This document shows, one piece after another, positions 42,002 to 64,000 of a DNA stretch of 64,000 bases. Every line of letters starts with the position of its first letter. Within the stretch, counting starts at the first letter, position 1. A program made the translations under genes and the position numbers. The notes below the pieces were generated by a model that did no database searches, was not told the DNA's origin, and saw nothing but the letters and a program-made list of their open reading frames with translations. This DNA is from Auricularia sp. M13 (taxonomy: Eukaryota > Basidiomycota > Agaricomycetes > Auriculariales > Auriculariaceae): contig CM073197.1 in assembly GCA_037042915.1 (NCBI GenBank), positions 3,410,001 through 3,474,000 of the forward strand. Direction: 5' to 3'.

Positions 42002-42902
42002 TTAAGGAAGCAGGGGCGCATTATCAAGGACACAGACGTTAGCTAAAGCCAGGTTACAGTATGGCTGCTCGCCCTCGGCGTGGATGCGCGCGAAATACAC
42101 CTCAAGTAACACTAAATCTCCGTCGTGAAGCTGCGTTCTTCGCATTTCGGACCGCGGCGCCTGTAGCCCGCGACGTCCATCTAGCACTCGTCCTACGTCC
42201 GCCGCGACTGTGGACTGCAAGGCGATTAGAATAATTGCGACCTGGATGCAATACGTACCACGTCGTAGGAGCCATCCGTATCAGCCGTCATGGTGTCTGT
42301 AAAGCGCGGTTCTAAGACGACATGAGCGAAGCATTTGCCGTGAAAAGCGCCTAACAGACTCTTGCGATTACGCGCGAAGCGGTCGAACAATGCGTTGGTG
42401 ATGTCGAGAGCCCGACGGTCCAAAGGCCGAATGGTGACGGAAGACGCGCTGCAGCGGTCGTCGGGCGGTCGCGTGAAGCTTTGCACCACGCCGGTGACCC
42501 AGATGTACATGGGCATGCGCACTTCGTAAGCGCCCATCCGTTTTGGCAGGGACAACACTGCGACGTAGCGCTGGCGATAGATCATGTTCATCCAGCGTAT
42601 GACCGCAGGCAGGCACGTCATTGAATAAGTGCGCGTTTCCTTATCCGCAAAAGTGGACATGCGTTCGATACGACTACAGTCGTCAGCATAAGTCGCTAGC
42701 GCACAGAGCTGACGGCGCACTCGTTCAGGATGGGGTTGCGAACCACCCACATCTTCTTGGCAGGTTCACCGGCTTCTTCCAGGTAGCCGATAGCAAGCGT
42801 CGAGCCCGGGAGTGAGGTAGGAGGGAAGGCAGCGTGGAGCATGTTACGAGATGGAATGGGATTGAAGATGTCGGCCGTAAGAGTCAGTAGCGGCGAGAAC
42901 AT
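42002..42902 (-). CDS. Family A copy 1, OB-fold-like hypothetical protein
   Basis: Exons 42902-42721, 42673-42259 and 42214-42002 (introns 47 and 44 bases) give 269 residues. Family A layout: an N-terminal part ending WVVRNPILN, the intron-split box N-x-RIERMSTFAD-x-TYSMTCLP, a beta-rich middle with MPMYIWVTGVVQSF and ITNALFDRF, and a C-terminal exon with GDLVLLEVYFARI and ANVCVLDNAP. The alternating hydrophobic strands and the GDLVLLE ending suggest an OB-like beta barrel; this is inference from pattern. Four more copies follow in this window with the same phase-2 first intron. A heat-shock-element-like array lies at 43043-43065, about 140 bases upstream. Confidence 0.75.
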
Positions 42903-43042
42903 GGGGGTCAGAGACAAGAGGGATGCCCGCGGGACCGCAATATAATTCGCGGATGTATATTCTTATTTGACGTTCCCGCAGGGACGCGCTGTGGCGACTT
43001 TGCTAATAATGACGGAATCTGTCGCGCACGAGGATAATGTGC

Positions 43043-43065
43043 TGGAACTTTCTGGAGTTCTGGAA
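43043..43065. promoter_or_regulatory. Heat-shock-element-like array upstream of family A copy 1
   Basis: GGAAC-TTTCT and GTTCT-GGAAC pentamer pairs, offset by three bases. Both pairs fit the nGAAn/nTTCn heat-shock factor half-sites. Confidence 0.5.
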
Positions 43066-43259
43066 CTATCCCTTGTCGGGTCGAGGGATCTCGCATTTAA
43101 CCGGTGTGGGGATTCATCGGCAAGACAGTATGTTGTTTTCTATCAAGAAGGATTGTCTACATTACGGTATAACGAATATCAGAGAACGCGCACGGCGCTA
43201 CATGCTAGCAAGGCGACATCAAGCTTCCGGAGAAAGACCAGCAGGCGCGGTATCCGCAT

Positions 43260-44870
43260 TCACGGCGCTGGCCTCTTCGCAGTCCTCTGGGACAGCAGGC
43301 CAATATTTTCGGCATTCCTCCTGCAACTCTTCGATGAGGCGGAGGTTGTTTTTCTCCTCTTCTCCACCCGAAGTACGTGGCGTTGAAGCTTAACGAGCTC
43401 GTCGACCAGGACCTTGTTGCCGTCGCCGAGGACGCGCAGCAGCTGCGGAGCACTGACGTATCCGGTCGCACTGTGTACTTGGCGTATGGACCGCGATGTA
43501 GCTGTGGTGGACTGCTTGCCAGGACCACCGGCGGGTTTCGTCGCGCGTTCGGTCGTAACACGGCGATCGGCGTGCGCAACGTCCGTCTACAACGCGAATG
43601 AGCAAATTCTAGAACGAGAGAAAATCACCGTTATATCATACCTCGTCCTCGTCAGAAACATCGTCCGCGAGCTGATCGACCTCGTCAGAATCATCGTCCG
43701 CGAGCTGGTCGACCGATTCGTCGTCGCCCGAGAGGACATACTCATCGCTGTCGGCAGGCTCTACAGCGTCGTCGTCCTCGGCAACCTCCTGGATCCCAGT
43801 CTCCATGCCAGTCTCGACATTGCTCTCAGTTTCAGCCGCGGACAAGGTCTCGCCCGCGTCATCGTACTCGTCGTCCTCGTCGACGCTGATAAAGCACGGC
43901 CGGCCAGCAACCGCTCTGCGCTGGATCCAGCACCCGTGGCAGCACAATTCGTACGCAAAACGCAAGCAGGGTCGGGTCTTGTGCCTGGTGTCCTTCGGAT
44001 AATAACCGCACTTGCTGCATACGACTTGACCAGGGAAAGACCAGCAGCAATGACGCGCGTAGTAGTCGAACTTGATCGAACTCTTGATGGCGTCGAATAT
44101 ATCATGAAAGCATGGGGGAAGTTGCGCGATGTCCTGAAATACCTCCAGAAGCAGATGACCAAGGGCGAGCGCGATGTTCCAGAAAGGCGAGTCGTCATCC
44201 TTCAAGTCTACGTGTGTCAATGAGGGCGAGATCATGTCGCGCGTGTGCTCGGCCCAGTGATCGAACGAGTCGTCTTGCACCTGGGGGTCGTCGAGGCCTT
44301 GCAGCGTAGAGACGAGCAAGCGATGAGCAAGAAACGCAAAGATCATTAAGTCGAACAGCGCGGCCTCTGCAGCAGCGAGAGAATCGTCCGCGAGTAAATC
44401 TTCAGGAATAGGAGCGTAGGCAGCGAGTAGAAAGCAGCAGACGATGCCGCGGACGGCAGGCATGTAAGAGACCTGCAACCTATGTTAATCTAACGATCCT
44501 GTCGCATATGACCTGCGAAACTCACCAGATAATTGCAAGGAAACTTGATAGCGACGCACACGTCGGGGCGCCTGCCGACACACGCAAGGCAGTCGCGATT
44601 TGCGGAGAGCAATTCGTCGCGCCTGTCGTTGTTACAGCACACGAAGCAAGCAGGTAGCTGTTTAGGGAGCTCGAAGCTGAAGTCGGTGTTGTACGCGTAC
44701 AGCGCGACAGCCTGTGCGGCGGTCTTGGGCACGGGCTTGTGCTTCCGCCCAGATTTGGCGGCGACGGCAGCGGGCTTGAGCACGCGCTTGGACTTGCGTC
44801 GCGCGGTCTTAGGCTTGAGGGAGACGGCAACGGTCTTGAGCACGCGCTTGGACCTGCGTCGCGCGGTCAT
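43260..44870 (-). CDS. Cys-rich protein with basic repeats and acidic tail
   Basis: Exons 44870-44526, 44472-43642 and 43586-43260 give about 500 residues. The N-terminus holds two near copies of RRxSKRVLK (nuclear-localisation-like). A cysteine cluster follows (CFVCCNNDRRDE, CLACVGRRPDVC). Exon 2 has a hydrophobic segment (VRGIVCCFLLAAYAPI), a second cysteine cluster (VCSKCGYYPKDTRH, CCHGCWIQRR) and a strongly acidic stretch (SDEVDQLADDVSDEDE). The last exon carries LRVLGDGNKVLVDELVKL; a better-looking continuation (EEKNNLRLIEELQEECRKYW) lies one base out of frame, so the 3' end may be frameshifted. No family recognised; zinc binding is possible. Confidence 0.6.
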
Positions 44871-45474
44871 GGGAAGAGGGAGAAATGCGAAACTTTGAAG
44901 TTCGACACGCGACGAGCGTCGCACTATTTATGCCTACTAGCAACATATCACAGCATTCATTCAACGCTCAAAGGCTGAATACTGACGGGCGCCAGTGACA
45001 GCCAATCACGTCGTGCGCGCGGGATAGCATCGGGAGCGCATTCGCACCAGCTATTCGGCGCACGCAACTTTCCATACACATGTGTATCCGCGTCGTACCG
45101 AGAAGTCGGCGTCGTTTCTGCGCAGAATACTCAGTTGGATCTGGAAAGTTCGATGAATACGAACAACAGCCTCTCGCTGTTTCATACCTCTCGCTAGGGC
45201 GCACCTAAGAAGCGGCGCACCTTCCGTATAGAACAGACACCTGCGCTGGAACTTTCGATGAATACGGACAGCATTCTGGCGGCAGGACACCCTTCATATC
45301 GCGTCACGTGCAGCGACAAAGGCCGAGCGCTTATTTTTCAACTGTGAGGTTGCTCGTGCAAGACTTGATTTACCACGCGTGACGTCACGTACTACGAAGA
45401 AGGATAGTAACATTCAAGTACCAGAAAAAAAAACTGAACGGGCACCGTAGAGCATACAAGGACTAGCTAAACAT
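44871..45474. other. 604-base spacer with promoter repeats
   Basis: Upstream of the Cys-rich gene and downstream of the Helitron-N-like gene. Two copies of a GGAAnnTTCGATGAATACG word at 45143 and 45248 (105 bases apart) sit in an imperfect tandem duplication of about 105 bases. No gene supported; the 79-codon minus-strand frame across it simply reads the repeat. Confidence 0.6.
45143..45262. promoter_or_regulatory. Tandem promoter repeat with heat-shock-like half-sites
   Basis: GGAAAGTTCGATGAA at 45143-45157 and GGAACTTTCGATGAA at 45248-45262, each two abutting nGAAn/nTTCn units plus a third GAA shifted by one base. They lie 270-390 bases upstream of the Cys-rich gene's ATG at 44870. Confidence 0.5.
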
Positions 45475-45870
45475 TCAGTCCGAGCGCGCGCAATGAAATT
45501 CTCCTCTGTACAAACCATTGGCGAGAGACAAGGCCGGAGTGCGAAGCTGCCGAATAGCGGACCAACACGACATGCAACGCGCGTACGCGGGGCGACCATT
45601 ATGAAGGTCGACGCCGCGTGGATCGAGAACAGCATCGCCCAGCTCAATATATGGGGGAGCGAGAACGAGGTCGTTGAGGTACAACGACGGGTCTACCAGA
45701 ACGCGGCGTTGATCGTCAGTCAGTACGCGAATGCTCGCGTTGACCGCGTACGACGAGCAGACCGCGCAAATTTCCACGACGACCGACGCAACAGCGGCTT
45801 TGTAGCGGCGTAAAAGAGCAGAGTGGTCCATTGTATACGAGTCCGGCATCATGCCCGCGTCCAGAAGCAC
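45475..45870 (-). CDS. Truncated gene resembling the N-terminal domain of fungal Helitron proteins
   Basis: Open frame of 131 codons whose first codon here is GTG at 45870; the first ATG is at 45852 and an upstream exon is possible. It contains CAVCSSYAVNA, then PPYIELGDAVLDPRGVDL, CMSCWSAIRQ and TPALSLANGLYRGEF. The C..C / C..CW / P-x-LSLANGLY-x-G pattern is the signature I associate with the region found N-terminal to the Rep domain in basidiomycete Helitron proteins (DUF6570-like). It stops right after the G-x-F, where family members normally continue for several hundred residues. It is therefore a fragment or a domain reused alone. A heat-shock-like array lies at 46049-46067. Confidence 0.55.
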   Translation of the reverse strand: MLLDAGMMPDSYTMDHSALLRRYKAAVASVVVEICAVCSSYAVNASIRVLTDDQRRVLVDPSLYLNDLVLAPPYIELGDAVLDPRGVDLHNGRPAYARCMSCWSAIRQLRTPALSLANGLYRGEFHCARSD

Positions 45871-46048
45871 CAGTGATACTGCGCGTCGGCGTTATATGCG
45901 GTGAGTTCACACAGCGAAGTGTGCAGACGCACGTCGTTGCGCGAAGCGAACTGCGGGATGCCGCGACAGAAGTTGGCAGAGGTATGGTCGAGGGCCGGCC
46001 GCGCAGTGTCGGTGGCGTGGCTTAAGTGGAAGAGGGATGGAAACATCC

Positions 46049-46067
46049 GGAAAGTTCTGGAACGCTC
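46049..46067. promoter_or_regulatory. Heat-shock-element-like array
   Basis: Three perfect abutting pentamers (GGAAA, GTTCT, GGAAC) plus a near match GCTCG. It is about 180 bases upstream of the Helitron-N-like gene on the minus strand. Confidence 0.6.
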
Positions 46068-46263
46068 GCGCAAAATGTCAGCGGAATCTTTAGCAGCTCT
46101 GAATTACATAAGCATAGGCCATGGGTTTACAAGCGAAGAACAGCGAACAACTCTAACATATAAAAAACCACTGCGACGTGAACATCTTCCTCGTCGATGC
46201 ATGCTGCGAGAAAAGGTGTTACGTGTTTGTACATATATGCACGAAAATCGCTAAGCCACGTAC

Positions 46264-47146
46264 CTAGTGCGACGTCCACCTCCGTAGCGTACGCGAACGA
46301 AGGAGTTTGCAGACCTGGGAGTCGTCATAGCTCAGTGCGTGGATGTGATGGTCCAGAATGGGCTTGTAATCGTTGAGGATGTTCTTCCAGACGCGAAGCA
46401 TTCGTCCTTCGTCTCGTCTTCCAGGACGTGGAGAGCAGCGATGACGCCGAGGGAAAACACGTAGTACGTGACAACTGCCACGGCCGTCGAGTCGTAGTTT
46501 GCAAGCGGCTGACCCAGGCGACGTTCGAGCGTATCGAGTTTAGCGCGCGTGGGGAACGTCCGCGGTTGCATCGTACCCATAGCGTCTCCAAGGACGTACG
46601 CGAGGTTGCTGTATACCTCGAGGTGAAGATATGTTCTTATCTGCATCAGCATCCGAGAAGACATGCGGGTCTGCGTACATACCGGGCTATGACGACGCCG
46701 TAAAGGCATCGATCACCCGCACTGTCTCGCGCACAGCACAAGTTGGATAAGATCGACGTTATGGGATAGTCATTCAAATAGGCCAGATGGCTGTCGAGGA
46801 CGTCGCACAAGCCGCGGACGAACGGACGCGTACGAGGGAGCGCAAGCGCCTCGACGTCCAGCAACTGTAGAAAGTCTTCGCAGACCCAGAATTCGTGTTC
46901 GATGTGCTTATAAGACTTCCAAGTCTGTCGCAGAGTGTTAACCAGCGATGATTGTACCGGAAATTGCGCGTACGTTCTCAGAATAAGACGTTTGTGCCGG
47001 GCGAAGAACGTAGCGGTCGACAACCGCTCCAGGAGCGTCGGCGGATATCTGCTCGCGAGGCATGCCACGGGGGCGAGAATTAGAGCGCCCAGTAGAGAGC
47101 CGGGAGCCACGCAGATTAAATACTGTGCGTTCCGGGCGGAGCACAC
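46264..47146 (-). CDS. Unknown protein, spliced, 3' end possibly frameshifted
   Basis: An exon open to 47146 (GTG; a splice acceptor at about 47118 is an alternative beginning) reads through GSLLGALILAPVACLASRYP, WKSYKHIEHEFWVCEDFLQL and GLCDVLDSHLAYLNDYPITS to CLYGVVIAR. A 46-ish-base intron near 46690-46650 leads to TYLHLEVYSNLAYVLGDAM and YDSTAVAVVTYYVFSLGVIA. The clear continuation VWKNILNDYKPILDHHIHAL…RRWTSH ends at 46264 but is one base out of frame, so either a small intron was missed or the copy is damaged. Helix-rich, mildly hydrophobic, no known domain. Confidence 0.5.
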
Positions 47147-47173
47147 GCGTCAAAGCTTAGTTGACGCGTGTGC
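47141..47173. repeat. Perfect 13-base hairpin with two MluI-box (ACGCGT) arms
   Basis: GCACACGCGTCAA and its reverse complement are separated by AGCTTAG. ACGCGT is the core of MCB cell-cycle elements bound by MBF in fungi. It lies at the 5' edge of the unknown gene ending at 46264, and about 60 bases beyond the 3' end of family A copy 2. Confidence 0.8.
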
Positions 47174-47235
47174 TGGCGACAGAGAATCGGACAGTCTTTG
47201 CGGTAATAGAGGCCACGTGTCTTTCGAAGTGTAGT

Positions 47236-48185
47236 TCAACGTACAGCGCTATCCAGCAGGCATATGGATTTCAAATGGAAATACGGGTCCCAACGGGGAG
47301 CACCGTTCCCGTCGTTCGATGAATGACAGGAGGTCAACACAAAATCCGCTTCAACGAGAACAAGGTCACCATCGCCGACGGCAGCACGTTCCATATCGAA
47401 GCGCGGCGATGTGATGCGGTCGCGAGCGTCACATATTACGACCTGGACAATCTGAGTTCGATTGCTCACGAACGGCGATAAAAATAGATAAAAACTTACC
47501 CGGTCGTGACATGCTGAAGACCCAAAAACGTCATGAGGTTTGAAGGTGAGAGGCAGCGCTTCTCGCCGTATGGTATCTGCGGATAATGAGCATGCGAAGG
47601 TAACATACGTTCCGCTATCTCACGCACCAATACAACCATTCCCATAGCGGCGCAGAAGCGCGCATGCTACGCCATATGATTCGTCGTCCAGCAGATCGAT
47701 ACGCAAATCGCAGCGCGCATCGCGAGAGGGATCGCCGGAGTCGCAACGGATGTCGTATACTCGTCCGATCAGCCACACCGTTATAGGCATGGGGATGGTA
47801 TAGAATGGCGAGACCATGCGAGGATAGGCAAGAACGCGGCTCTGGGCCGGCTGCGAAGAGCGGACCGACACGAATTGTGCCCCGCACGGAAGGTTCGTGA
47901 TGGAGAACGTATTGGTACGGTAGTCGGTGAGAGCATGCATGCGCAGAATGCGTCTAAGCACTGTTAGTGCCCGTGTCCAGCAGGAGCGCTGTCGACTCAC
48001 TTGTTGAGAATATCATCGCTGACCCAGTCCTTATCCATGGGCTCGTCGGCGTCGGGGAAAAGCTGTTTCACGACGGAACGAGCCTTGCTTGTTGACGGCG
48101 GGTAAGCCACAGCGAGCGCAGTCGGAGGCGCATCGACCGTCAACGAAAGGACATTGATAACCGAGGAAGGAACTGTGTGGGCCAT
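47236..48185 (-). CDS. Family A copy 2, OB-fold-like hypothetical protein
   Basis: Exons 48185-48001, 47953-47628, 47576-47500 and 47442-47236 (introns 47, 51 and 57 bases) give 264 residues. The family boxes are DKDWVSDDILNKRILRMHAL, TNTFSITNLPCG, PITVWLIGRVYDI, a short variable exon (IRREALPLTFKPHDVFGSS) and GDLVLVEADFVLT…YFHLKSICLLDSAV. The start ATG at 48185 lies 63 bases from a five-unit heat-shock element. Compared with copy 1 it has one more intron, shared with copies 4 and 5, so copy 1 probably lost it. Confidence 0.78.
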
Positions 48186-48247
48186 TGGGAAAAGTCTTGA
48201 AAGCAAGCCGCGCTGCGAATGCGACCTTTAACGTACCAGTACCATGG

Positions 48248-48272
48248 AGAATATTCTGGAACATTCGCGAAT
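48248..48272. promoter_or_regulatory. Five-unit perfect heat-shock element
   Basis: Five abutting pentamers alternate nGAAn and nTTCn without mismatch or gap (AGAAT, ATTCT, GGAAC, ATTCG, CGAAT). This is a canonical high-affinity HSF1 site, 63 bases upstream of the family A copy 2 ATG on the minus strand. Confidence 0.8.
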
Positions 48273-48315
48273 GAACGTCACACCGGCAAATACCGGTCAA
48301 CATAATATGAGATTA

Positions 48316-49301
48316 CTAATCGCTGGTTACATCGGTTGCGCGGTGGAGAAGACACATAGAACGCAGGTTATAATATGCTTCTTCGTGGTCAGGCGAGTCG
48401 GACTTCCGGAAACGAGTCAGCCAAGCTTCCGCTAAGATGAGGTCGCCGCAACGAAGGCTGGAAAGAGGCAGCGCCATCATGGTGTCGCCATGGAGACGCC
48501 AGCGCACGAGTGCCGTCCCAGAAACCGTTCGCGGAAGACTGAGAGAAAGTTAAACCGTGAACTGACCTCGTCAGCTTCAGCGCACCTCTTCTCCGTTCTG
48601 CGGCAGTTCGTAGCTGTGCATAAACATGACGTCGGGGGCATAATGGGGACACTCTCTGTGTACGAAAAGATCAGTCGTGTAACACGCGGTACCACTAAAC
48701 GAGGCGCACCGAACATGTAGTGACCTCCAAAATTGACTTGAAGGCCGTGTGCTAGCTCCTGCGCTCGAGGGTCGAGGGTCTTCACGTGCACGAAATAGTT
48801 CTTCGGTATGGAACCGTCTTCGTCTTGGAAACGGACCCGAGTAACGTGGCCGACCATCCAGAGCGTAACGGGTGCTTGCAAGCGCGAGGCTGGCATCGGG
48901 TAAGACAAGATGTTGACCTTCCATTCCGACTTGTCCGCGGGCACGCGCATAGGCATGAGCAGGACGCTAGACGGCACGCAAGTGATAGAGTACGTGAGAG
49001 TGTCGTCGTCGGATTGTCGGTGCATGAGATGAATCCGACTTCGCGTCATAGCAATGCGTAAGTGCCCGCGCGCATAAGATATACTCGAGGCGCACCGATT
49101 TAATTCTGGGTTTCCCTTAACCCATTCGATAGGCTGGGGCTCCGACGCCTCGGGAAGAATTATGCTCATCACGTCCTCGAGAATTGGACGCTTGACCGGG
49201 AAGGCGAAGTAGCGGAACGATTCCTCGGTATCGATATCGAACGCGCGGCGCGAGTCCAGGACACTGTGCAATACGTGAACGCGCGGTACCTCACGGGGCA
49301 T
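48316..49301 (-). CDS. Family A copy 3, probably frameshifted
   Basis: Exons 49301-49096 and 49038-48725 are clear: VKGNPELN, RIHLMHRQSDDDTLTYSITC, APVTLWMVGHVTRV, KTLDPRAQELAHGLQ. The short third exon around 48655-48580 (CPHYAPDVMFMHSYELPQNG) and the last exon (CGDLILAEAWLTRF, YYNLRSMCLLH) are recognisable, but FWDGTRALASPWRH at the start of the last exon is one base out of frame with the GDLILAE part near 48480. Either a sequencing error or early decay. A TATA-like CTATATGAA lies about 50 bases upstream of the start. Confidence 0.6.
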
Positions 49302-49618
49302 GAAGTTCGAGTGCGGTTGTGAAGACCCGCTAGTTTTAACTCACATCGGTCAGAGCCTATATGAATGCGGAATGACAAGGATACTGATTCCAACGCGTTA
49401 CCGAGTCAGAACCTGCGCATAGACGTACCAACGAGGTTGGATTTGGTCAATACTAATATACAGCTAGAAGTACAGTACGGCTACAACGGCGAAAGTCATG
49501 TGCGGCATCAAGAGCTGAGCCGGCGGTCCGTGACAAAGATACTAGTACAGAGAGTCAAAGAGCCGGTTCATAACGTTCGAAGGAAAGAGACCAGTATCGA
49601 GTGACAGGCCGGAACGAC

Positions 49619-51312
49619 TCACAGTGCCCAGTTACCAACGGGGACCGCGGCGGCGGGGTCGGCTTCAACGGGCGTGTCGTCCAGCATGCAGATGGACTTG
49701 AGAGAGAAGTAAGCGGCCCAGTTCTCGTGCCGCTTCTTGTTCTTGTTCGGCGAGGTGGATTCGGAAGACTTGTCCGTGACGCGGTATCTGGCAAGGCTGA
49801 CTTCAAGGAGCACGAGGTCGCCTTTCTTCAAGTCCGCCGCCGACATAGGTTCCATCTGTTCGCGCGGCGATTTCAGGGCCTTGCGAGCATCCCAAATAGC
49901 ATCAAAGCTGTCAATCTGCGGAAACACAACGGTCAGCTGTGGTACCGAGAGGTGTACGAAGTAGTCACTCGGTCTGAGTACTCACCAGGGACTTTGACGT
50001 TCATCCAGCGCGATGCGCGAATATCATCGTAGCGCTCGACGCCTACGAAACGATAAGCAGCGCGCGATTTACACGCCAACAAACGTACTAGCGGCATCCG
50101 TCGTGTGGCGGCGAAGCAAGGTCGTCGCCGCGTGGAACGAACGGGAGTTCAAGGGCCGGATGTTGACGGAGACGCTCTTGGGAAGATTGCCGAGATTGTC
50201 ACGAAGGTAGACGCGCGAAAGACGTCCGACGATCCAGATGGAAACGGGAGCCATATTCTGCGGGCGATTCTTCAAGGGACGACCGAGAACGTGGACGCGG
50301 TCGCGGACGGGGTCGTCGGTGACGATGATGCGAGCGTCGGCCGGAACGCGTAGGATGGAATAAGTCAGCTCGTCGTCGTTCGCGAAGTCGTGCATGCGGT
50401 CGATGCGCCTACGCGAGGAAAAGGTCAGAAGGCGAGTAAGCAGCGCGCTAGTTACATACGCATTAAGTCGAGGGCGACCTTGAACCCATTGCTGCTTGAT
50501 CATCGCCTCTTCCTTGGAAAGCGTCAAGATAATGTCATGTCTTCGCGCGACATACGAAGACACACCTTCTTAACAACCGGCTCGGGTGATTTCGCGTCCT
50601 TTGACTGCGTCAATACGAGTGTGCCGGGCTACAGGCGAAAACGCACCTTCTTAACAACGGGGTCAGGTGCTTTCACCTTGACGGGCGCCTTGACGGTATC
50701 CTCACGCGACAGCGCAGGCTCGACCTGTTCCTTTGCTTCGACTGGATCGACAACCGCTTGTTCAACCGACGTAACGACGGCAACATCGTCGGCGCGTTCC
50801 TATACTTATACATTAGGGCGACGAACACGCGCTACCACGGCTTTTGCACGCGCAACGCACCTGTGATGGCTCCTCGGCCGTGGTATCGATATTATTGGAG
50901 GGCAAGACGTCCTGCTGACGCGAAGAGCATCCGTGAGCCCGACGCCTTCAACACAGATAACAGACGAACCTTGGCACGCGCGCGCAAGGAGTAAGCAGAA
51001 TGAACTGATTCGCCGTCGTCCTCAATAGCACCGTCTTCGTCTTCATTGGCGTCTTCTTCGCCGTCTTCCTCGTCGTCGAGTACATCATCGTCTTCCTCTG
51101 CTTCACTATCGTGGAATCAGCTCATATTCAAGTCGGCAGATGAAAAGTAGACCTACTCGTCTATGAACTGCGACGCAACGTGATGGCGGTCGTTGCGCTT
51201 CCTACAAAAGCACACGCGAGTAAGATTTATGCCAGCCAACGCGTAGCTACGGGACTGACCGGGATTTCTTGGGAGAAGTCGCACCGGGCGGTGGGCGAGA
51301 GCGTTTGGGCAT
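49619..51312 (-). CDS. Family A copy 4 with acidic, Spt5-like N-terminal extension
   Basis: Ten exons close in phase (51312-51260, 51201-51157, 51105-50970, 50914-50861, 50799-50647, 50604-50566, 50512-50460, 50408-50089, 50042-49982, 49907-49619) for 400 residues. The N-terminus is MPKRSRPPPGATSPKKSRKR, then FIDDEAEEDDDVLDD and a run of acidic residues. This layout recalls the N-terminus of elongation factor Spt5, though no NGN or KOW domain follows. Two successive exons end KAPDPVVKK and KSPEPVVKK, an exon duplication. The rest is family A: WVQGRPRLNARIDRMHDFAN, APVSIWIVGRLSRV, FDAIWDARKALKSPREQM, KKGDLVLLEVSLARY, YFSLKSICMLD. The extension is absent from the other four copies. Confidence 0.75.
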
Positions 51313-51764
51313 TGCTGTAGGACCCTTGCGACGAAAATGCAGTGATTTTTAATCGGCCTTTATTGCGAGACGCAGGAGTCGTCCAGAATGCGCCGGAAAC
51401 GCGTAGAACGACGTCGAAGGATTTCGATCGCTCCACTGCGCCAGGAATGTTGTGGAATATTCGAGACGGCCACAAGAAAGTGCGCGACGGTTGGCAGAGG
51501 CTCATAACGCAAGTTGTACGAGGAATCGCGCAAGACGGAAAGTCAGAGAACACTGCCGAATAATCTGGAAAATCCGACCGTAGCAGAGACCATCCGCTGT
51601 CGATGGTCGCAATGCCATTGTATTGCGATAGCGACAGAAGTTTAGTCGTCGTGACGGTTGGAGTCCATCAAGGACATGCGAAAATGTCGATGTGAATGAC
51701 ATGAATAACAGCGCGAGAGCCATATGAACTGCCAGTGCGATGGAAGGCGGTGGGAGAACGACAC

Positions 51765-52125: not shown

Positions 52126-52166
52126 CCAGCCAAAATGCGACGCACCGGGTCTCTTGCGCAATCGAA

Positions 52167-55286: not shown

Positions 55287-55608
55287 ATCCTGGGCAGCTT
55301 ACTTCGCGAAGTCAAAGCTAGGGTCGCGACACGGGGCGGAGGGTCGATTGCGGCTGAACGGGGTGATGTGCGTGTAAAGCTGCACCCATTCGGGGTGAGA
55401 GCGCGCGGCGGACAGCATGCCTCACGATTCGGGGAGAAAGCACGCGAAGAGGACAGACAGAAAGAGCGGGATGGACCTTATACGTGCGGGCGCCGAACTT
55501 TGTTGTACAGGCGGGCACGATCGAGGCTCCGGGATCAGGCAACATGAACCGGAACATTGTAGACGGGGAGAAAAGCAGCGCAGGAATTTGCCTGAGATAA
55601 AAGGATGT

Positions 55609-56588
55609 TCATACATCGAGTGCATACTGGCCAGCACGCGCGAGAACGCACATAGAGCGAGTGTGATAGTGACACTGCTCGAGGTGCGTCTCGTTGTCTT
55701 CTCGACCATGACGTGCTAACCATAGCTCAGCGAGTACGAGGTCACGTTCGGCAAGATGCTCGGGCGGGATGGCAGGCATGTCACGGCGCGGGAAGGAAAG
55801 CTTGTGGGTGGCGTCCCAACAGTTCGCCATAATCGTCTGCGTAAAATAGGTTTAGTAAAATTCCGGGATTGGCGAACATTTCATACACCAACCGGACGAC
55901 CTTGCTCGTCGACTTTGCGAGGAGACGAGCACAGTATAGGTCGGTTACGATTAACGGGCCCGGCTATGTATGCGTCAGAAACAAGGCGCGAGGCTGAAGC
56001 AAAATGCATACCAAGCGGCGAGCCCGAGAAATGTTGACGCAGCTCCTCAGCAAAATCATGCACCTTTCGCTCCAGTGCGCGTATATAGACAGTCCACTTG
56101 GTAAGTTCGCCCTGGTCGTCACGAAGAAGGACCACTCGCTCGACGACGGCGACGATCCAGATGGTAACCGCTGCGCGCATAGACACGTCGGGGATAGGAG
56201 CGCTGAGGATACTGACGAGGGATTCGGCGCCGGAGGGTTGCGACAGCGTCAAGAGCGAAAGGGTAGATGGGAGGCACATCATCGAATATGTAAAGGCGGC
56301 GTCGTCCGAGTGCCGTTGGAAGAAGTGGATGCGCCTGAGTAACAATCAGTGCGAAACGTGGTCAAGACGCAAGAATGAATCGCACTCGTTCAGCGCGGCG
56401 TTGTCCTTAACCCACTGTGCAGCCTTTGGTTCACCCGCGACTGGGAGAAGCTTGGCGAGGGCGTTCCAAGCAAGCGTGCTGAAAGGGGGAAAGGCCATGT
56501 ATTGTGGGCGCGTCGAGAAGCCCGGTACGGCCGAGCGATGGTGGTCCATCACGGAATAGCGTGGCAGGATACGAGCCCCGTCGTCCAT
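55609..56588 (-). CDS. Family A copy 5, OB-fold-like hypothetical protein
   Basis: Exons 56588-56386, 56334-56012, 55963-55887 and 55836-55609 (introns 51, 48 and 50 bases) give 276 residues. Boxes: AAQWVKDNAALNERIHFFQR, AFTYSMMCLPSTL, AAVTIWIVAVVERVVLL, the short variable exon (AGPVNRNRPILCSSPRKVDE), and CWDATHKLSFPRRDM, RDLVLAELWLARH, YHTRSMCVLARA. All intron phases equal those of copy 2, which argues for duplication of a spliced genomic copy rather than retroposition. Confidence 0.78.
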
Positions 56589-56950
56589 GGCTGGGAGCAA
56601 GAAGAGGCGCGGGCCTCGAATCGCTGACGAACGGAATCTTATTCGACCAAGGCGACTTCAGCAACACCGCGATAACCAATTCCATGGAGTCGAGCCGCGC
56701 CGTAGTATCAGATGCGCTCTGCCGAGTGGGAGTGCGTCGGTCTTCATATCTAGGGACCACATGTACCAGTGCGTTACGAAGGAGGATCTTAGTTGGGAGT
56801 CGGGTGGTGCTGGCGAAATTTGACGACGGCCGGTAGCTCCGACTGCAAAAACAATACAAACGAGTATATTCGGCTACATATTCGACAGTCCTCATCAGCA
56901 TCGTGAGCGTATCATAGAAATACAAGTACAAGTTAAACAATCTGTCCATG

Positions 56951-57605
56951 CTACATCTGAACAGTCATCGTCGGCGCAATACTGCAGTCTCTGGCGTCGG
57001 CTAAAGCACATTGGATAATGGACGCCAGTCGCATGTGCAGGCTAACAAAGAAGAAGCTGGGTCCACGCCCGAGTACCAATACGTCACCTCTCCAGGCCCC
57101 GGCGGGTTGTGCGTCGTGATGAATGGAGCGATTGAGAGGTAACGTCGATGACCCAGCGACGCGGAACGCGCGAATTCCGAATTCATGACCGTCGTGCTCG
57201 ACCATGACGTCGGTGTGAAGAACGGGACCACGTAGGAACGGCGTGATATGCTCCTCCAGCACGCTCACATAGGGAGGAGAATGCGTGAGAACAAAGTCGA
57301 CAGCAACCGTAACTTGCTGAGGGCTGCCGTTCGCGGGAATGAAGATCGCTTCCACGTGCCGTCTGACTATCAGGGTGGAGTCGCGATCCTGTGCATACGC
57401 GTTAGCGGCAAATCCGGAGGGCACGATGCTGAATGCAGACCCTCATTATTTCACGAGCCATCTCCATGCGCGCGGGCGACGGAATAGAAGTGCTGCGCGC
57501 ATATCGCTCGTAAGGCGGCGGCGATGGGGCACGACCAAGCCTCTCGGACGAATCGTCCGCGGGGGCGTGAGCGTTCAAACGGGGGGTGGTAAAATTGGGA
57601 GGCAT
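56951..57605 (-). CDS. Family B copy 2, hypothetical protein
   Basis: Exons 57605-57441 and 57388-56951 (52-base intron with GCTAAC branch site) give 200 residues. The N-terminus is MPPNFTTPRLNAHAPADDSS and Pro/Ser-rich; exon 2 has RHVEAIFIPANGSPQQVTVA, VDFVLTHSPPYVSVLEEHIT, VLHTDVMVEHDGHEFGIRAF and LPLNRSI…AWRGDVLVLGRG. The last box is shared with family B copy 1. The protein appears complete; the function is unknown. Confidence 0.68.
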
Positions 57606-58087
57606 GAAGGTGCAACAGTTAACGTGCGCTCAGGGCCTTTAGCCTAAATGGAGCACGTCTGGACCGCCAGCCGGAACTTCACTTAAGCTCGAGGGCAGGT
57701 ACGTACCGTGCAGACGACCGTCCCTCAATGGCGGCCGTCTGATCTCATCCGCGCTGATTAAATACCGCGCGCATGGTCTAAGTTAGCTCAGCGACGACAA
57801 TCCGGAGGAAGGCTGCGGCAAGTATCTCAGAATTGCGGACTGCAAATAACGGAAGATAACATGTGGCAGTGCAACGTGCTCATGGCATCATTCCCACGTG
57901 CTTCGTCTTGCGAAGCATGACGCAGATATGTCGAACGCCGCCATGGAATGCGATGGATTCTGCAGTCGAAATACATCGAACATCATGGATAGTGCGGCCG
58001 TAATTACCATCCGGACGGACATAACGCTCGCCGTTTACGCCGCGTTTTCTTCGGAAGTAAATTAATCTGTCTAACTGGGTTCTGCGC
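57606..58087. other. Divergent spacer between family B copy 2 and family C copy 2
   Basis: 482 bases. A minus-strand frame of 69 codons (58089-57880) ends in MLRKTKHVGMMP; it has no neighbours to splice to and is probably chance. No heat-shock array or TATA box is obvious. Confidence 0.4.
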
Positions 58088-59413
58088 ATGTCCGCGGACG
58101 CATGCGCTCGTGTCTCGGACCTGCCTATCTCGGACGATAAAATGCCGGGGGAGGGTGGCGACCCGGCTGACCATTCTTTGCCCCCGCAATCGAGGTGCTG
58201 CCTGTCTCACCGTACAATGTCGACCGTCGAGCACACCGGTGATACAGCCATGGAATTGGACGTGGCCATGCCGTGTGTAGCGCCCCGCGCGATATCGGAC
58301 TTCGCATTGACTGATTGACAGATTCGGTCTCCATTCTTCCGTCGACACCGCATCGGAGGAAGACCGCCTTAGCCGCTACGGCCGCTTCATGTACGCACTA
58401 GCCAGCCGTCCCGTATAACCGTTCACACCTCGCCGCCAGCGCCAATAATGGCCGTATCTGTGACGACGTCTGGTTGCACATCATATCCAAGCTCAACTTC
58501 AGCGAGCTCGCCACCCTCCGTGCCGTTAGCAAGGGTCTCAAGCGCATGGTCCCTATGGAGCTTCGTCTTCGTCTGCTCCTGCTGGTCACCAACTACGTCG
58601 GCACCATGGACCGCGCCAAGATCGTCCGCGAGTTCATGGACCTCACCCACTCCGTCATCGCCGGCGGAGAAGGTCTAGACGTCGTCCAAGCCATGAAGGA
58701 ACGCGCGAACAGTCTTGACATCTTCACGCCATTGGGCCTCCACCAGGTACGCATCGCGCGCGGCTTGCAAGTTGACGCAGCATTGACCGTTCATAGTTTT
58801 TCATCAACCTATTCGTCGGTTGGGGCGCCAAAGTCATGCCGTTCATCGCGGGGGCGCCGCTTCCCGGCGTGTACGCGCACCTGCCGCAGCGCATGGACAC
58901 TCGCTCTATTACTTGCATGGAGCTCAACGGGCGCCGCATCCACATAATCGAGAGCGTCACGCCCATGGCAATGCACGCGGTGCTGGACGGGTGGACTTCG
59001 GCGGGACTCAACGTCCTAACGGCGCGCTTCTTCGTGATCTCGTTCCCCCATCTTACTCGCGAGAACGTATGGACGCCTCTCTTGTCGAGCCGTGGGCAAT
59101 GATGCTTACGACGACGCAGATCGCGCTCTTCAACGGTCTGGCCATGGACGGTTATCGCAGCGTCAACGACACGGCATTGACCAAGTACGACAGGCGCGGC
59201 ATTCAACACTTCGACACGACCATCTACGGCGATTTCGGCACTAAATGCTTGTCGGACTGGTGGACCATTCACAAGACGGATCGCATTTGCGTCCTGCCCC
59301 TGGACTACGCGGAGACGGGCAGCCCGCCCGAGTTCGGGCACGAGCTGCGCTGGCGCGTCGGGGCGACCTGCAAGGTCATTGGCTGCCCGCACAAGCACGA
59401 TGGTGCGCGTTGA
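58088..59413 (+). CDS. Family C copy 2: F-box plus nucleotidyltransferase-like protein
   Basis: Exons 58088-58272, 58322-58390, 58440-58746, 58797-59066 and 59120-59413 (introns 49-53 bases) give 374 residues; internal ATGs downstream of 58088 are alternative starts. After a short acidic lead, ICDDVWLHIISKLNFSELAT followed by LRAVSKGLKRM is an F-box (binds Skp1 in SCF ubiquitin ligases). Then DLTHSVIAGGEG…NSLDIFTP parallels the G-S…D-I core of family C copy 1, followed by VYAHLPQRMDTRS, MAMHAVLDGWTSAGLNVLTA, KYDRRGIQHFDTT and CKVIGCPHKHDGAR. Unlike copy 1 it is intact. On the plus strand, convergent with the Helitron helicase gene. Confidence 0.75.
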
Positions 59414-59699
59414 AGTCAGCAGCCGATGCAGTATACTAACGCGCGATGCAGAAGAGGAGGTAGACGAGGTCACTTGGCTTAAAGGACTCCGTTCGTCGCC
59501 TTCCACTTGAACATTCCGTACATCCCGTATCGCGGACAATATCGCGATTAAACATCTCGGCTTTACGACTAACGAACATTCCCTCCCTTATCTTCTTGTA
59601 TCGAACGTGTCGACGGTGGCTGCGCGCCGTCTGTACTATAACTATCTCCTCCACTATACATACGTCTTTGCAGACACAACGTCGGTACAAAGTGATCTG

Positions 59700-62600
59700 C
59701 TAAAGCGCGACCATCAAGTTATAGAAATCAGACGCGATCCACCTCTTCATGGTGCGGACGGTCAATGCATGTAAACGCGCCATCTCACGCTGCGTACTTG
59801 GTGTCTGTGACCGACGGATATGCTGCGCAGGAAATGCACGCAGTATAGCCATGTTGGACAACTTAACGACACGCGACAACATAACATACGTAGATTGGAT
59901 GCATCGAGCTGTGCTCTGCAGGTCAAGAATGGCGTACTGCATCGTACGTCCTTGACTTTTGTAATCCGTGAATGCGTATGCTGGGATCAAGGGTAGCTGA
60001 GTTCGCGTCACACCTTGACCATCGCGCCCAACTTTGAAATACCGTTTCTGCGGAAATATTGGTACCACGCCGGGCTCGTAACCTGGATAGGAAAGACTAC
60101 AGCCAGGGATACGGACCATCGCACATAGAGCGACGCGATCTCCGTGTTCACTCAAGTCGTATGTCACATCCACGAGCTCACCCTCTGCACCATTTACGAC
60201 CCCAGACGTTGTAACAATGTTATCCAAGATCATAACTTTCATGCCCTTACACAAAGGGATGGATCCCAATCTGTCCTTCGTCACAGAAGAGCTTACGGTA
60301 CGCAGAGCAAGCTCCAATCGGCGACTCACGGCTTGACCGAGCATAGTATCTCGCGCGACGTATTGATGCAAAACCTGGCCCGTCCTCGCGGCATGCCTAC
60401 GCGTGGCCTCCATATTCCACTCATCGCGTACAGCTTTGTCGGCCGTAATCAAGGGCGCGTCTTGAAACTCAGGACCGAGCACACAACGGGACATCAACCG
60501 GCTGCACAACACTTCGACATCCCCAGTGGTTGCGTTGCCGTCGCCGACGCGCTGCACTAGAGCTCCATACCGCGGATCTAATCTATGACGAAAATTCTCC
60601 GTCAACGTCACAACACGGTCTACGAACGACCACAAGCCCTGGCCATGCGCCTTCAACTGTCCACTTTTCTTCGGGGCAGCCGTACGAGTATATGAATCGG
60701 TGAGTGCTGCTTTCTCCAACCACAGATGATTATCCAGCACGGGGGGCAATTGACGAACGTCTCCCAGGAAAATTACATTCAGGCCTCCGAAAGGTTCGTC
60801 CGAGCCTGTGATCTGACCTAGCCTTTCGCTAATGCGGGACAAGAGCTTCGCTCCAATCATAGACACCTCGTCTATGATGAGATACTTCACTCCAGCCCAT
60901 TCAGACTGCAACTCGGAGAGTGCGTTCAAGCTGTTTTTGGTGTTGAAATGCAAGCGAAGCATGTAATGTAAAGTTTCTGCACTGATCAGATACGCTGAAC
61001 AACCCGTAGGGCCCCCTTTCCGCAGACGTCGTCGCGCACCAACGCGCGCGAAGAACTCTTCGATGCCTCGTATGACGTAACTTTTACCAGTACCACCTGC
61101 GCCAGTAACTAACATGAGCAACTGCTCAGGATCTCCGGAGATCAAATGCTCCGCCACCGTTCCAACTGCCGCAGACTGCTCGCGATTCAAGCGAAAGTCG
61201 CGAATCACGCCTTTGACGACGTCGGGATCGCGGTAAGCCGGATGGTCAGCCTGGTAAAAGAGGGGTCGAATTGACTCTCCGTCGTTCCGAGGACCGTCGT
61301 ACAAGAGATGCACATCGCGTTCTGGCATTTCGGAACTAGCAACGCGGTCATCGATCCCGGACGGAGCGTCCTCCGACGCCGACAAGTCTACTCGCTGCGC
61401 CCTTCGAAAGTTCTCAGTAACTCTCGCTAGCTTCCTGTGATGAGCGTCGGCCTCCGCGGTGGCCAAGGCCGCAAAATCATGCGATGCGCCAGACGAAGGG
61501 ACGTCAAATACACTGGATTTAAAAGCTTTCGCTACCGCCCGCTGTGCACTGATAGAGTTGAAGGACTGGGCCATTACCGCAGACGGATTCTTGGGAGAAT
61601 CATCGTCAGATGCTCCCTGTCGAGCCAGCTCCTCGGCCACAGCAGGCATCGAAGCGTGCAGCCAGTCCCAGTGCGTCTCATCGGCCTGATCTCGATTGTT
61701 CATCTGAGCTATGGATCTCATGACCTGGTGTTCACTAATTAAATCATGACGAATGGCACCGCGTTTACGCATCTCAGTGTACGCGTCGCGCGCGTCTTTG
61801 CATTCAAACATCGCGGCCAGATTGGACATGATTTCTACCGAGCGCGAGTGAAAGCGATATTTCTCAAATGCCGTCGACCAAGACTCGCTCGGTCCGCGTA
61901 GGTCAGCCAGAGATCTCCAAGGTTTAAATAATATAAGCATGGCTCTACAATAAGCTTCGTACTCATCAGCGCGATCACCACGCGGTAACGTCGGTCCCAA
62001 CACCACTGGCACGACGGGTTTCTCACGAACGCAAAGCAGATGCGTCTCATGCTGTGGATGCTGATCGAGGAAATACGCTCTCGGGCTGGTTCGCGAGGTC
62101 TTTCGCGCTCTCTTCCCTAGACGAACCTTCTCACGGTCAACGGGCATCTTGTTCAAGGTGTTAACGAACCAATACAGCGGGACATCCGCGTACCCATGTG
62201 CGCGATACACGTAATCATCAACCTGACTCGAAACCTGGACCTTGCGACGGTGAGGCGCCATATCTATCATAACGTCGTCTTCCACGTCGTCGCAAAGATC
62301 AGGTTCGTCATCCCGAGCATGATCTACGGAGGACAACCCTTCGGACGATTCTTGCCTCTTGACCCACGCATGAAAACTTCCCCAGTACAGAGTCTGGAAG
62401 GAATGCGACGAGTAGTGATCAAAGGCATTCGTGGCCAACAAGTAAAGTGCGCTCTGCTGTCCACTCAACTCCATCTCAGACATCAGCGCGTTACAAGCCC
62501 TATTGAGGAACTTTCTAGAACGTTCGATGCCTGCTCGAGCAACATCACGCTCGGTATTATCCAACGCAGCGTCGCCTTCGATCCCCCCCTCGGCAGCCTG

Positions 62601-62849
62601 GATGGTCTCCAGTACACGTTGCAGAGCCGCAAAAACTGTGTGCGTGGGAAGATTGTTCTTGGTGATATAATCCGTAGCATAGTGTATCAACGCCTGCGCA
62701 CCGGGACCCGAACCGATGAACTTACAATCAGAATTACACCTTGTGCAAGCTGTAACCGTACGATTATGCTGATTAACCCAAGGATGCCATCGACGGTGAA
62801 GAATGGAACCAGTCTCAGCGTCGAGCTCTGTTGCAGCGCGTTGAACCAT
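59700..62849 (-). CDS. Helitron PIF1-like helicase part of RepHel
   Basis: Open frame of 1049 codons. The first 90 residues finish the linker typical of Helitron proteins (TGSILHRRWHPWVNQHN, ACTRCNSDCKFIGSGPGAQA, YATDYITKNN). The helicase follows: Walker A GAGGTGKS (near 61081-61105), Walker B YLIIDEVSMIGAK (near 60860-60890), GDVRQLPPV, TLTENFRHR, and the C-terminal YKSQGRTMQYAILDLQST and VMLSRV boxes. PIF1-type helicases unwind 5' to 3' and in Helitrons serve strand displacement. All core motifs look intact. The ATG at 62849 is internal; the protein is really the continuation of the Rep frame. Confidence 0.93.
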   Translation of the reverse strand: MVQRAATELDAETGSILHRRWHPWVNQHNRTVTACTRCNSDCKFIGSGPGAQALIHYATDYITKNNLPTHTVFAALQRVLETIQAAEGGIEGDAALDNTERDVARAGIERSRKFLNRACNALMSEMELSGQQSALYLLATNAFDHYSSHSFQTLYWGSFHAWVKRQESSEGLSSVDHARDDEPDLCDDVEDDVMIDMAPHRRKVQVSSQVDDYVYRAHGYADVPLYWFVNTLNKMPVDREKVRLGKRARKTSRTSPRAYFLDQHPQHETHLLCVREKPVVPVVLGPTLPRGDRADEYEAYCRAMLILFKPWRSLADLRGPSESWSTAFEKYRFHSRSVEIMSNLAAMFECKDARDAYTEMRKRGAIRHDLISEHQVMRSIAQMNNRDQADETHWDWLHASMPAVAEELARQGASDDDSPKNPSAVMAQSFNSISAQRAVAKAFKSSVFDVPSSGASHDFAALATAEADAHHRKLARVTENFRRAQRVDLSASEDAPSGIDDRVASSEMPERDVHLLYDGPRNDGESIRPLFYQADHPAYRDPDVVKGVIRDFRLNREQSAAVGTVAEHLISGDPEQLLMLVTGAGGTGKSYVIRGIEEFFARVGARRRLRKGGPTGCSAYLISAETLHYMLRLHFNTKNSLNALSELQSEWAGVKYLIIDEVSMIGAKLLSRISERLGQITGSDEPFGGLNVIFLGDVRQLPPVLDNHLWLEKAALTDSYTRTAAPKKSGQLKAHGQGLWSFVDRVVTLTENFRHRLDPRYGALVQRVGDGNATTGDVEVLCSRLMSRCVLGPEFQDAPLITADKAVRDEWNMEATRRHAARTGQVLHQYVARDTMLGQAVSRRLELALRTVSSSVTKDRLGSIPLCKGMKVMILDNIVTTSGVVNGAEGELVDVTYDLSEHGDRVALCAMVRIPGCSLSYPGYEPGVVPIFPQKRYFKVGRDGQGVTRTQLPLIPAYAFTDYKSQGRTMQYAILDLQSTARCIQSTYVMLSRVVKLSNMAILRAFPAQHIRRSQTPSTQREMARLHALTVRTMKRWIASDFYNLMVAL

Positions 62850-64000
62850 CCATTCTCATGCGACAATGTACGTCATCACGCGGTTCACCAGAACGGAGGT
62901 TCTTCCAGCATGTATCCGTATGGGCATGGAAATGACAATCATACACTAAGCGCTCGAGTTGACGAGCAAATTCGCCCTCGAAATCCGCTTCATCCGGGTG
63001 GGGACATCTCATCGTACAAGGATGAACCTCGTCCGGATCACGTATGACGAAAACAGCGTCCTCAGGGGCAACAACACCCGTGTTACTCGGGAGGGAGGTA
63101 TGCACACTGTCGTCAAGGTAATCAAACAGTTGAGATTTGAAATCCGCATCGGACCGCATCTTATCACGCAACTGTTTTGGAGACAAGCCGCCGTCTATCC
63201 AGATAAACATGTGGCAGTGTAAGGATCCGCGGCCCTGCGCTTCTATTGTACCATAATAAGCCCTGAGCGGTCCGAATATACCGAAGCGGTCAGGGCTATC
63301 CGCCCCGAGAATAACTTCGATAAAGCAGGTCATCATGGCGTGAAAGAATTTCGCTCCTGCCACGGGGTTACGGGCAACTAGCACCTCGCGTTCATGATGA
63401 GACGGTAAAGAGGCGGGAACACGCTCGTCTAAACTAACCTCAACACCCGCAAACTTGCAAAACAACGGATGATATACGTCGGCCGGATTCAGCGTGAAAA
63501 AAAATGTGGGCATGCCCAAATACGCGCATAAAGAACGTATCTGATTTCGCATGCTTAGCTTTGACGACTCGCTCCCCGGTATGGGTAGCTGGACCATCTT
63601 TACTTCTCGCGCAAGACTGGCGATAGCACGCTCTTCATCTGTCTCAGGCACGGCACGTGCATAAGGATTCTGCGAGCTGCGAATGCGCAGGGCCTCGCAA
63701 GCCGAAGTTTCTGCACTGGATAAGTAGGCAAGAACTCTGTCCTGCGAGGAACGCTTGACACGCCAACGCGAAGATTTGTATACCACCAACTTCTGAATGA
63801 TGTTCATGGCTACGAACATGAAAGTCTGGTCCGTCTGGAATACACGATTGGCGTGGTTTAAATAGTGGCGCACCAACGACTCCAGCGAAACAGGCTCGCG
63901 TCGCCGACCGTCATCAATACCGCCAAGTCCCCAGGGAAACAAATGAGGGAACATACACGGGAATAAAGACGGGTTCCTCCATTCAGACACGGGCGTGGAA
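62815..64000 (-). CDS. Helitron Rep (Helitron_like_N) part, partial
   Basis: Open to the window edge; the start lies beyond. RNPSLFPCMFPHLFPWGLGG, FMFVAMNIIQK, FFFTLNPADVYHPL, FFHAMMTCFIEVILG and EAQGRGSLHCHMFIWIDG are characteristic. LHCHMF (near 63206-63220) is the HUH metal-binding motif of the rolling-circle nuclease. The frame ends at 62815 in CRMRMDGSTRCNRA, while the helicase frame picks up at the same point (MVQRAATELDAETGSIL), so this copy has a one-base frame slip between the two halves or a sequence error there. Confidence 0.92.
   Translation of the reverse strand, partial: STPVSEWRNPSLFPCMFPHLFPWGLGGIDDGRRREPVSLESLVRHYLNHANRVFQTDQTFMFVAMNIIQKLVVYKSSRWRVKRSSQDRVLAYLSSAETSACEALRIRSSQNPYARAVPETDEERAIASLAREVKMVQLPIPGSESSKLSMRNQIRSLCAYLGMPTFFFTLNPADVYHPLFCKFAGVEVSLDERVPASLPSHHEREVLVARNPVAGAKFFHAMMTCFIEVILGADSPDRFGIFGPLRAYYGTIEAQGRGSLHCHMFIWIDGGLSPKQLRDKMRSDADFKSQLFDYLDDSVHTSLPSNTGVVAPEDAVFVIRDPDEVHPCTMRCPHPDEADFEGEFARQLERLVYDCHFHAHTDTCWKNLRSGEPRDDVHCRMRMDGSTRCNRARR

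Follow-up and report, generated by a model that had tools for sequence, protein, structure and literature searches.

A probable giant Helitron with Helitron2-like ends and about a dozen collinear cargo genes in the genome of Auricularia sp. M13

The stretch of DNA studied here (the window; 64,000 nucleotides of contig CM073197.1 of Auricularia sp. M13, GCA_037042915.1, i.e., C5:3410001-3474000) contains a Helitron-type Rep/helicase gene and, downstream of it, a cluster of about 13 further genes. This raises the question of whether the cluster merely adjoins a Helitron or is carried by it as cargo, as a sequence-only reading of the window had proposed. Our analysis, based on the sequence of a single genome (52.1 Mb in 14 contigs, denoted C1, C2, etc.), indicates that the cluster and the Rep/helicase gene very probably form one autonomous giant Helitron of 24,224 bp, which is of the Helitron2 type by its ends. 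The evidence consists of ends shared between copies, an empty site and the insertion of one copy into another. The genome-wide searches score the best candidates only and, therefore, all counts of loci and copies are lower bounds.

The complete element lies on the minus strand and extends from position 41,882 of the window to 66,105 (C5:3451882-3476105). Its last 2.1 kb are located beyond the window end, where extension of the sequence, as suggested in the sequence-only reading, indeed revealed the 5' end. DNA searches with pieces of the window yielded two copies of ca. 99% identity positioned head to head on C6 (the plus copy, C6+, with 99.24% identity over 24,131 bp, and the minus copy, C6-), an interrupted copy on C10, and two relatives, on C2 and C7, with ca. 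70% DNA identity. At the 3' side, the C6+, C6-, and C10 copies all stop at window position 41,880-41,882, i.e., within 2 bases, and the flanks beyond are unrelated. The 5' end at 66,105 is common to C6- and the C2 and C7 relatives, and also to the C10 copy and the split C6+ copy; 5' ends could thus be read in all six elements. The ca. 99% identity of the copies suggests that the window element was recently active. The C10 copy is broken by large insertions into pieces spread over 66 kb (C10:1778831-1844892), and the C7 relative (C7:1716848-1764039) has an insert of ca. 25 kb within the helicase. The DNA search also revealed a further broken copy at C7:2287914-2298003, for which the end words discussed below were not found.

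An empty site was found as a paralog in the same genome (C5:2879127-2881000), where both flanks are contiguous, 99.7% and 99.2% identical, and separated by a single ATTC. The nested insertion on C6 (C6:1102458-1150933) provides a second one. Here the minus copy lies within the plus copy in opposite orientation; the first 147 bp of the plus copy are present at 1102458-1102604 and the remainder resumes at 1126824, no base being lost or gained except for a 4-nt ambiguity, so that the leader of the plus copy itself serves as the empty site. The minus copy landed in the heat-shock-element array of the Rep leader of the plus copy (see below).

It had been noted from the sequence that no Helitron 3' end is visible right after the helicase stop, and we also found none there; the first boundary common to the copies is 17.8 kb downstream, at window 41,880-41,882. 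Copies that end shortly after the helicase stop and lack the cluster, the case named beforehand as refuting the cargo reading, were not encountered. The 3' word GGCTTCAGGTCTCCGCG is matched exactly at six places in the genome, once in each giant element, and the 5'-end word has six matches as well (five exact, one with one mismatch; none for the control), all in giant elements. Since all end-word matches belong to the six giant elements, no short, cluster-less derivative of this family was found. An initial pattern for the 3' end, in which the loop length was fixed, matched the C7 element only, and the shorter word was used instead; when two mismatches were allowed this word gave 13 further matches against 17 for the reversed control, and these were disregarded.

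The placement of the boundaries is ambiguous by 4 nt because ATTC is present on both sides, with the 5' flank ending in ATTC in all six copies. The 3' end reads CAG[A/G]TTATTC in four of the six (C5, C6-, C6+, and C7) and CAGATTATCG in C10. The latter favors reading the element as TCCTGAAG...GATTAT, inserted after NAT and usually before TC, i.e., NAT^TC, the alternative being a point change in C10; for the other copies the ambiguity of 4 nt persists. Neither the empty site nor the nested insertion needs a target duplication; with ATTC on both sides a duplication of 4 bp is formally possible, but it is disfavored because of the C10 3' end. The 5' end carries CTGAAGCCGTTAA (66,091-66,103, outside the window), one partner of a 13-bp asymmetric terminal inverted repeat, whose reverse complement sits 35-47 nt from the 3' end and is followed by a hairpin (Table 1), as is characteristic of Helitron2 ends. 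The sequence-only reading had expected a 5' TC and a 3' CTRR; the 5' TC is indeed present, the CTRR is not. Judged from these features, the ends are Helitron2-like, with an asymmetric inverted repeat, a 3' hairpin and no CTRR. Two observations fit the Helitron reading less well: the 3' end, ...CAGATTAT, lacks the CTRR of a canonical Helitron1 while the 5' TC and the hairpin are present, and the last ca. 10 bases of the C2 relative are unlike the other 3' ends.

The Rep/helicase gene was correctly read as running toward the cluster, its domain matches being on the minus strand. PF14214 matches at C5:3473205-3473873 (114 bits), and PF05970 (PIF1, E 1.4e-17) and AAA_30 match the frame at 59,700-62,855. 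The protein contains the HUH (LHCHMFIW) and double-tyrosine (YATDY) motifs of the Rep as well as Walker A (GAGGTGKS) and Walker B (LIIDEVS) motifs, and for its helicase part matches to solved chains of Pif1 and Helraiser were obtained. This fusion of an HUH/Y2 Rep to a Pif1-type helicase is that of the Helitron superfamily; the C-terminal endonuclease domain of Helentrons was not found by Pfam in the helicase frame. The two-exon gene model starts beyond the window and encodes 2,069 amino acids from the first ATG or 2,046 from the methionine at 65,886, which is preferred because the first ATG falls inside a heat-shock-element array. By analogy with the family, the Rep would nick at the 5' end, replication would roll through the helicase and all cargo genes, and termination would take place at the 3' subterminal repeat and hairpin. 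The resulting single strand would be inserted at NAT^TC without target duplication; the boundaries and clean empty sites are observed, and the strand chemistry would be that of the family.

Between the Rep/helicase gene and the 3' end there are ca. 13 genes (g1-g13; Table 1), of which all but g1 and g6 (i.e., 11 out of 13) are on the Rep strand, in line with the orientation reported from the sequence alone. They comprise an F-box gene (g1), two members of family B (g2, g5), five of family A (g3, g7, g8, g9, g13) and g4, g6, g10, g11, and g12. The claim that one of them is a Helitron N-terminal fragment holds for g11, although its likeness to the Rep N-terminus does not include the PF14214 domain. 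The C2 and C7 relatives contain 12 of the 13 genes in the same order; only g12 is missing. Relative to C2, the proportions of synonymous (pS) and non-synonymous (pN) differences are 0.59-0.84 and 0.16-0.41 for the cargo and 0.86 and 0.19 for Rep; over both relatives the cargo values are 0.57-0.84 and 0.15-0.49, with synonymous sites near saturation. The ratio of the non-synonymous to the synonymous substitution rate (dN/dS) is 0.11-0.26 versus C2 (estimable for 8 of 12 cargo genes) and 0.11-0.40 versus C7 (5 of 12), with g10 compared over just 96 and 81 codons. A single in-frame stop, in g5 of C7, occurs across all cargo matches in these relatives.

Three of the cargo families (g4, g6, and A) also occur outside this close family of elements, where they lie downstream of five Rep genes of more distant relationship. 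One of these elements (C2:2018k) has g6, three g4-like genes, two B genes and one A gene downstream of its Rep, which has 41-43% amino acid identity to the window Rep (the only one of the five for which this was measured); no convincing pair of inverted-repeat ends was identified for this element. Another, on C11:3077k, has a Rep that aligns with the window Rep DNA at 67% over 956 bp. The association is strongest for g6: each of the ten loci found in the genome lies downstream of a Rep within 60 kb, irrespective of strand, five of them in the close family and five with other Reps on C1, C2, C10, and C11 (two). When each set of five g6 loci was placed at random 5,000 times, at most three (distant set) or four (family set) were linked. 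Loci of g4 occur at the same five distant places and at one on C3 without a detected Rep. Family A has ten loci outside the close family, five of which lie downstream of a Rep in the same orientation (0.28 expected); the other five are unlinked. For this linkage test 51 PF14214 matches were reduced to 43 Rep loci by dropping eight that lay beside other listed matches; lengths were assumed for C1, C3, C4, C8, C9, and C12, and the grouping into loci was manual. By this distribution the conserved g4/g6/A/B module is older than the family of the window element. The C3 locus (C3:455956-457762), with g4- and A-like genes and no Rep detected nearby, is possibly a decayed or Rep-less giant element.

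Most of the cargo thus seems to be a standing part of the element rather than a fresh capture, because it is collinear in three diverged elements, shows few amino acid changes relative to silent ones, and includes three families that recur beside five distant Reps. A competing explanation is that the cluster is true passenger cargo, i.e., host genes caught by bypass of the element end and without any role for the element. This would fit published fungal Helitrons, which are described in the part of the report available to us as gaining genes downstream of RepHel (PMC4289320). It would also fit g1, since F-box proteins form a large host family, and especially g12, which has no match in the C2 and C7 relatives, is represented by ca. 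27 other loci in the genome and is a probable later acquisition. Some of the data speak against a standing function of the whole set. Between the young C6+ copy and the window element synonymous differences number 17.2 and non-synonymous ones 30.8 in the 13 cargo genes, compared with 13.0 and 7.0 in Rep (over only 1,283 codons); these are too few for tests per gene and at that depth give no sign of strong selection. Furthermore, in the comparison with the relatives g3 exons 1-2 matched paralogs and g11 matched the Rep N-terminus, which, together with the unshared g12, means that common ancestry is not proven for every gene. Against a passenger origin, 12 of the 13 genes have remained collinear at near-saturated synonymous divergence with the low dN/dS values given above, no g6 locus was found away from a Rep, and g4 has a single Rep-less locus; family A is a less clear counter-argument, with half of its outside loci unlinked. 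On balance, we consider it unlikely that the cluster as a whole consists of passengers. With respect to g12, six of its 27 other loci are 5-20 kb downstream of, and on the same strand as, a Rep (0.80 expected), and five of these six follow Reps whose PF14214 matches are confined to short or split stretches. This sequence association hints at a second class of long Helitrons.

The cluster had also been described as heat-shock-linked, and motif counts bear this out. Strict arrays, defined as at least three alternating GAA/TTC units with 5-bp spacing, occur five times in the element versus a mean of 0.165 and a maximum of 2 in 200 first-order Markov sequences, and not at all in the remaining 41,879 bp of the window. 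Four arrays have at least four units (none in the Markov sequences), and when one mismatch is allowed six arrays of four units are found (mean 0.075 in 40 Markov sequences). Seven and four strict arrays are present in the C2 and C7 relatives, respectively, and for four of the five arrays of the window element both relatives have an array at the corresponding position, namely in the Rep leader, between g6 and g7, and upstream of g9 and of g11. In the Rep leader, outside the window, the array has four units and ends 81 bp short of the preferred Rep methionine (65,886), so that at the motif level the transposase gene is preceded by such an array. From these motifs in the Rep leader and the cargo promoters it seems rather probable that heat stress would switch on the transposase and the cargo together. 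Other observations are less favorable to this idea. The distance of 81 bp hinges on the choice of the methionine at 65,886, the first ATG being inside the array, and no array was found near the Rep of the distant C2:2018k element. The arrays could, alternatively, be chance occurrences or leftovers without a regulatory role: the evidence is one of motifs, one of the five strict arrays falls within coding sequence of the helicase, and among the seven strict arrays of C2 one is located in g6 and another, close to g5, lacks a strict counterpart. This seems improbable, though it deserves some weight, in view of the excess over the Markov expectation, the absence of arrays from the rest of the window, and the four positions matched in both ca. 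70% identical relatives.

Two other explanations for the gene cluster can be dealt with briefly. A small Helitron adjoining an unrelated host cluster by chance or tandem duplication, which the arrangement within the window alone could not exclude, is refuted by shared ends 24 kb apart in independent copies, the empty site and the nested insertion, while the differing flanks argue against segmental duplication of the copies. Equally improbable is a composite in which a Helitron sits inside another large element (Starship, Polinton, or DDE transposon): the multi-gene content recalls such giant elements, but the sole shared boundaries are Helitron-type ends without target duplication that coincide with the unit of Rep and cargo, and neither a recombinase nor an integrase or DDE domain was detected by Pfam in the helicase exon or the 13 cargo proteins, 12 of which match nothing above cut-off.

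Among the cargo proteins, only the F-box of g1 reached a family cut-off in the Pfam search. For family A, the PDB profile search gave one match (E 0.21), to an unrelated repressor, and Foldseek gave none with E <= 0.001; for family B nothing credible was obtained by Pfam, PDB sequence search, or Foldseek. The suggestion that family A looks like a DNA-binding protein consequently found no support in the Pfam, PDB-profile, and Foldseek searches, nor did its comparison with RPA-like proteins of the oligonucleotide/oligosaccharide-binding (OB) fold, for which only single exons were folded. The structure models are weak (family A exon 2, predicted local distance difference test score (pLDDT) 75 and predicted template modeling score (pTM) 0.55; family B single exon, pLDDT 65). 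No solved relative of g6 was retrieved from the PDB (best E 0.44), and Rfam gave no match within 41,000-64,000. The gene models are approximate: the predictor fused g4 with g5 and g9 with g10, which were split by conservation, and missed g12, and its many spurious models on the opposite strand were disregarded. The predicted introns are short, which, like the Helitron2-like ends, agrees with a fungal host.

Table 1. Positions of the Helitron and its components within the window.
Feature	Position	Strand	Remarks
Giant Helitron, in-window part	41882..64000	-	Shared copy ends, empty site, nested self-insertion
RepHel transposase gene, in-window part	59700..64000	-	PF14214, PF05970, AAA_30, catalytic motifs
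g1, F-box protein	58250..59510	+	PF00646, E 1.7e-5; collinear in both relatives, dN/dS 0.22 and 0.25
g2, family B	56951..57605	-	69% / 74% amino acid identity to C2 / C7 relatives
g3, family A	55609..56588	-	
g4	54495..55286	-	Distant likeness to part of g1 (E 1e-4)
g5, family B	53539..54190	-	Start approximate
g6, 366-amino-acid protein, hallmark gene	52167..53473	+	dN/dS 0.11 versus both relatives
g7, family A	49619..51320	-	Conserved exons 49,619-50,503; N-terminal exons uncertain; 76% amino acid identity to C2, C7; dN/dS 0.12 versus C2
g8, family A	48316..49301	-	
g9, family A	47236..48185	-	
g10	46332..47149	-	38% (C2), 42-46% (C7) identity; collinear position
g11, resembles N-terminus of the element's own Rep	45475..45852	-	43% over 95 amino acids, E 1.5e-13; collinear copies in C2, C7
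g12, Cys-rich protein	43636..44869	-	From list of open reading frames
g13, family A, last gene before 3' end	42002..42902	-	
Heat-shock-element-like array inside helicase coding sequence	62508..62525		No counterpart in relatives
Heat-shock-element array of 4 perfect units in the g6-g7 interval	51766..51783		Counterparts in g6-g7 interval of both relatives
Second g6-g7 array, one mismatch	51445..51462		
Heat-shock-element array of 5 perfect units, upstream of g9 (86 bp)	48249..48271		Counterparts in both relatives
Heat-shock-element array of 3 perfect units, or 4 if one mismatch is allowed, upstream of g11 (215 bp)	46050..46067		Counterparts in both relatives
3' copy of 13-bp asymmetric terminal inverted repeat (TTAACGGCTTCAG)	41916..41928	-	
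Subterminal hairpin at the 3' side (stem of 6 bp, loop of 6 nt), 13 nt away from the end	41895..41912	-	Fold of last 60 nt

Just left of the Helitron insertion, an open frame of 1,817 amino acids with endonuclease and reverse transcriptase domains (35,265-40,718) represents an element of the long interspersed nuclear element (LINE) type. The interval 40,002-40,934 has relatives at many other places in the genome, mostly with 66-79% identity, and is possibly the 3' part of this LINE family. Further to the left, open frames of 695 and 558 amino acids (20,450-22,537 and 32,868-34,544) without a Pfam match coincide with the stretches of highest GC content (0.68 and 0.67).

Comparison with known systems was based on partially available texts. 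The closest likeness in the ends is to FoHeli1 and FoHeli2 of Fusarium oxysporum, Helitron2-type elements with an asymmetric terminal inverted repeat whose 3' copy is tens of bases inside, a hairpin, a 5' TC, no CTRR, and insertion between TNAT and T (PMC5148889). These are about 5-6 kb long, with 27 putative gene captures for which no important role was seen according to the available part of that report, whereas the window element measures 24.2 kb and has about 13 further genes and heat-shock elements. HELPO1 of Pleurotus ostreatus likewise has genes downstream of RepHel, i.e., one to four "cap" genes, several of no assigned function and some similar between subfamilies (about 45%), but it has 3' CTRR ends and reaches 13.7 kb, and the accessible text describes no collinear set of a dozen genes or heat-shock motif (PMC4289320). 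Proto-Helentron-Pi of Phytophthora infestans is also large (about 14 kb), with several extra open reading frames, an empty site and no target duplication; it differs in its 5' TT and 3' CTAG, a SET-domain frame and a captured ankyrin/TIR fragment, and heat-shock elements do not figure in the available description (PMC4067079). Heat-shock elements do occur upstream of the Rep-helicase in Caenorhabditis Helitrons, for which heat induction was shown; these are animal elements for which cargo genes are not mentioned in the portion at hand, whereas here arrays precede cargo genes too (PMC6927752). For the Xuan-Feng Helitrons of wheat, heat stress with reduced methylation promotes mobilization (PMC13286980); the accessible part of that study of a plant family describes no comparable cargo set. 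Other fungal Helitrons are known to carry TET/JBP genes, as far as the excerpt goes (PMC12730594), and a review, available in part, gives sizes of 14 kb in fungi and up to 39 kb, with gene fragments, in maize, and considers capture of full-length genes exceptionally rare (PMC6431247). The literature, covered through titles and abstract openings with few subscription journals, yielded no report of a giant Helitron in fungi that has a conserved cargo of a dozen genes or heat-shock elements, which is weak as evidence of absence. For fungal Helitrons with downstream genes these partial sources give sizes up to ca. 14 kb.

As to the function of the cargo, the likeliest role of the proteins of families A and B and of g4 and g6, with about even odds, would be to help the element replicate, to regulate it, or to let it evade silencing. 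Still more tentatively, and with doubt prevailing, the ca. eleven loci in this genome may represent a lineage of multi-gene, heat-switched rolling-circle elements instead of transposons with cargo, with a module of their own (g4, g6, A, and B) for replication, spread or defense, which would make them the giant Helitron counterpart of Starships and Mavericks. If a dozen intact genes are truly kept across diverged relatives within one element, the existing picture of Helitrons would change. Heat-shock elements common to transposase and cargo would make stress-triggered mobility of the whole gene set directly testable, and g6, Rep-linked at all ten loci here, may serve as a simple marker for such elements in other genomes.

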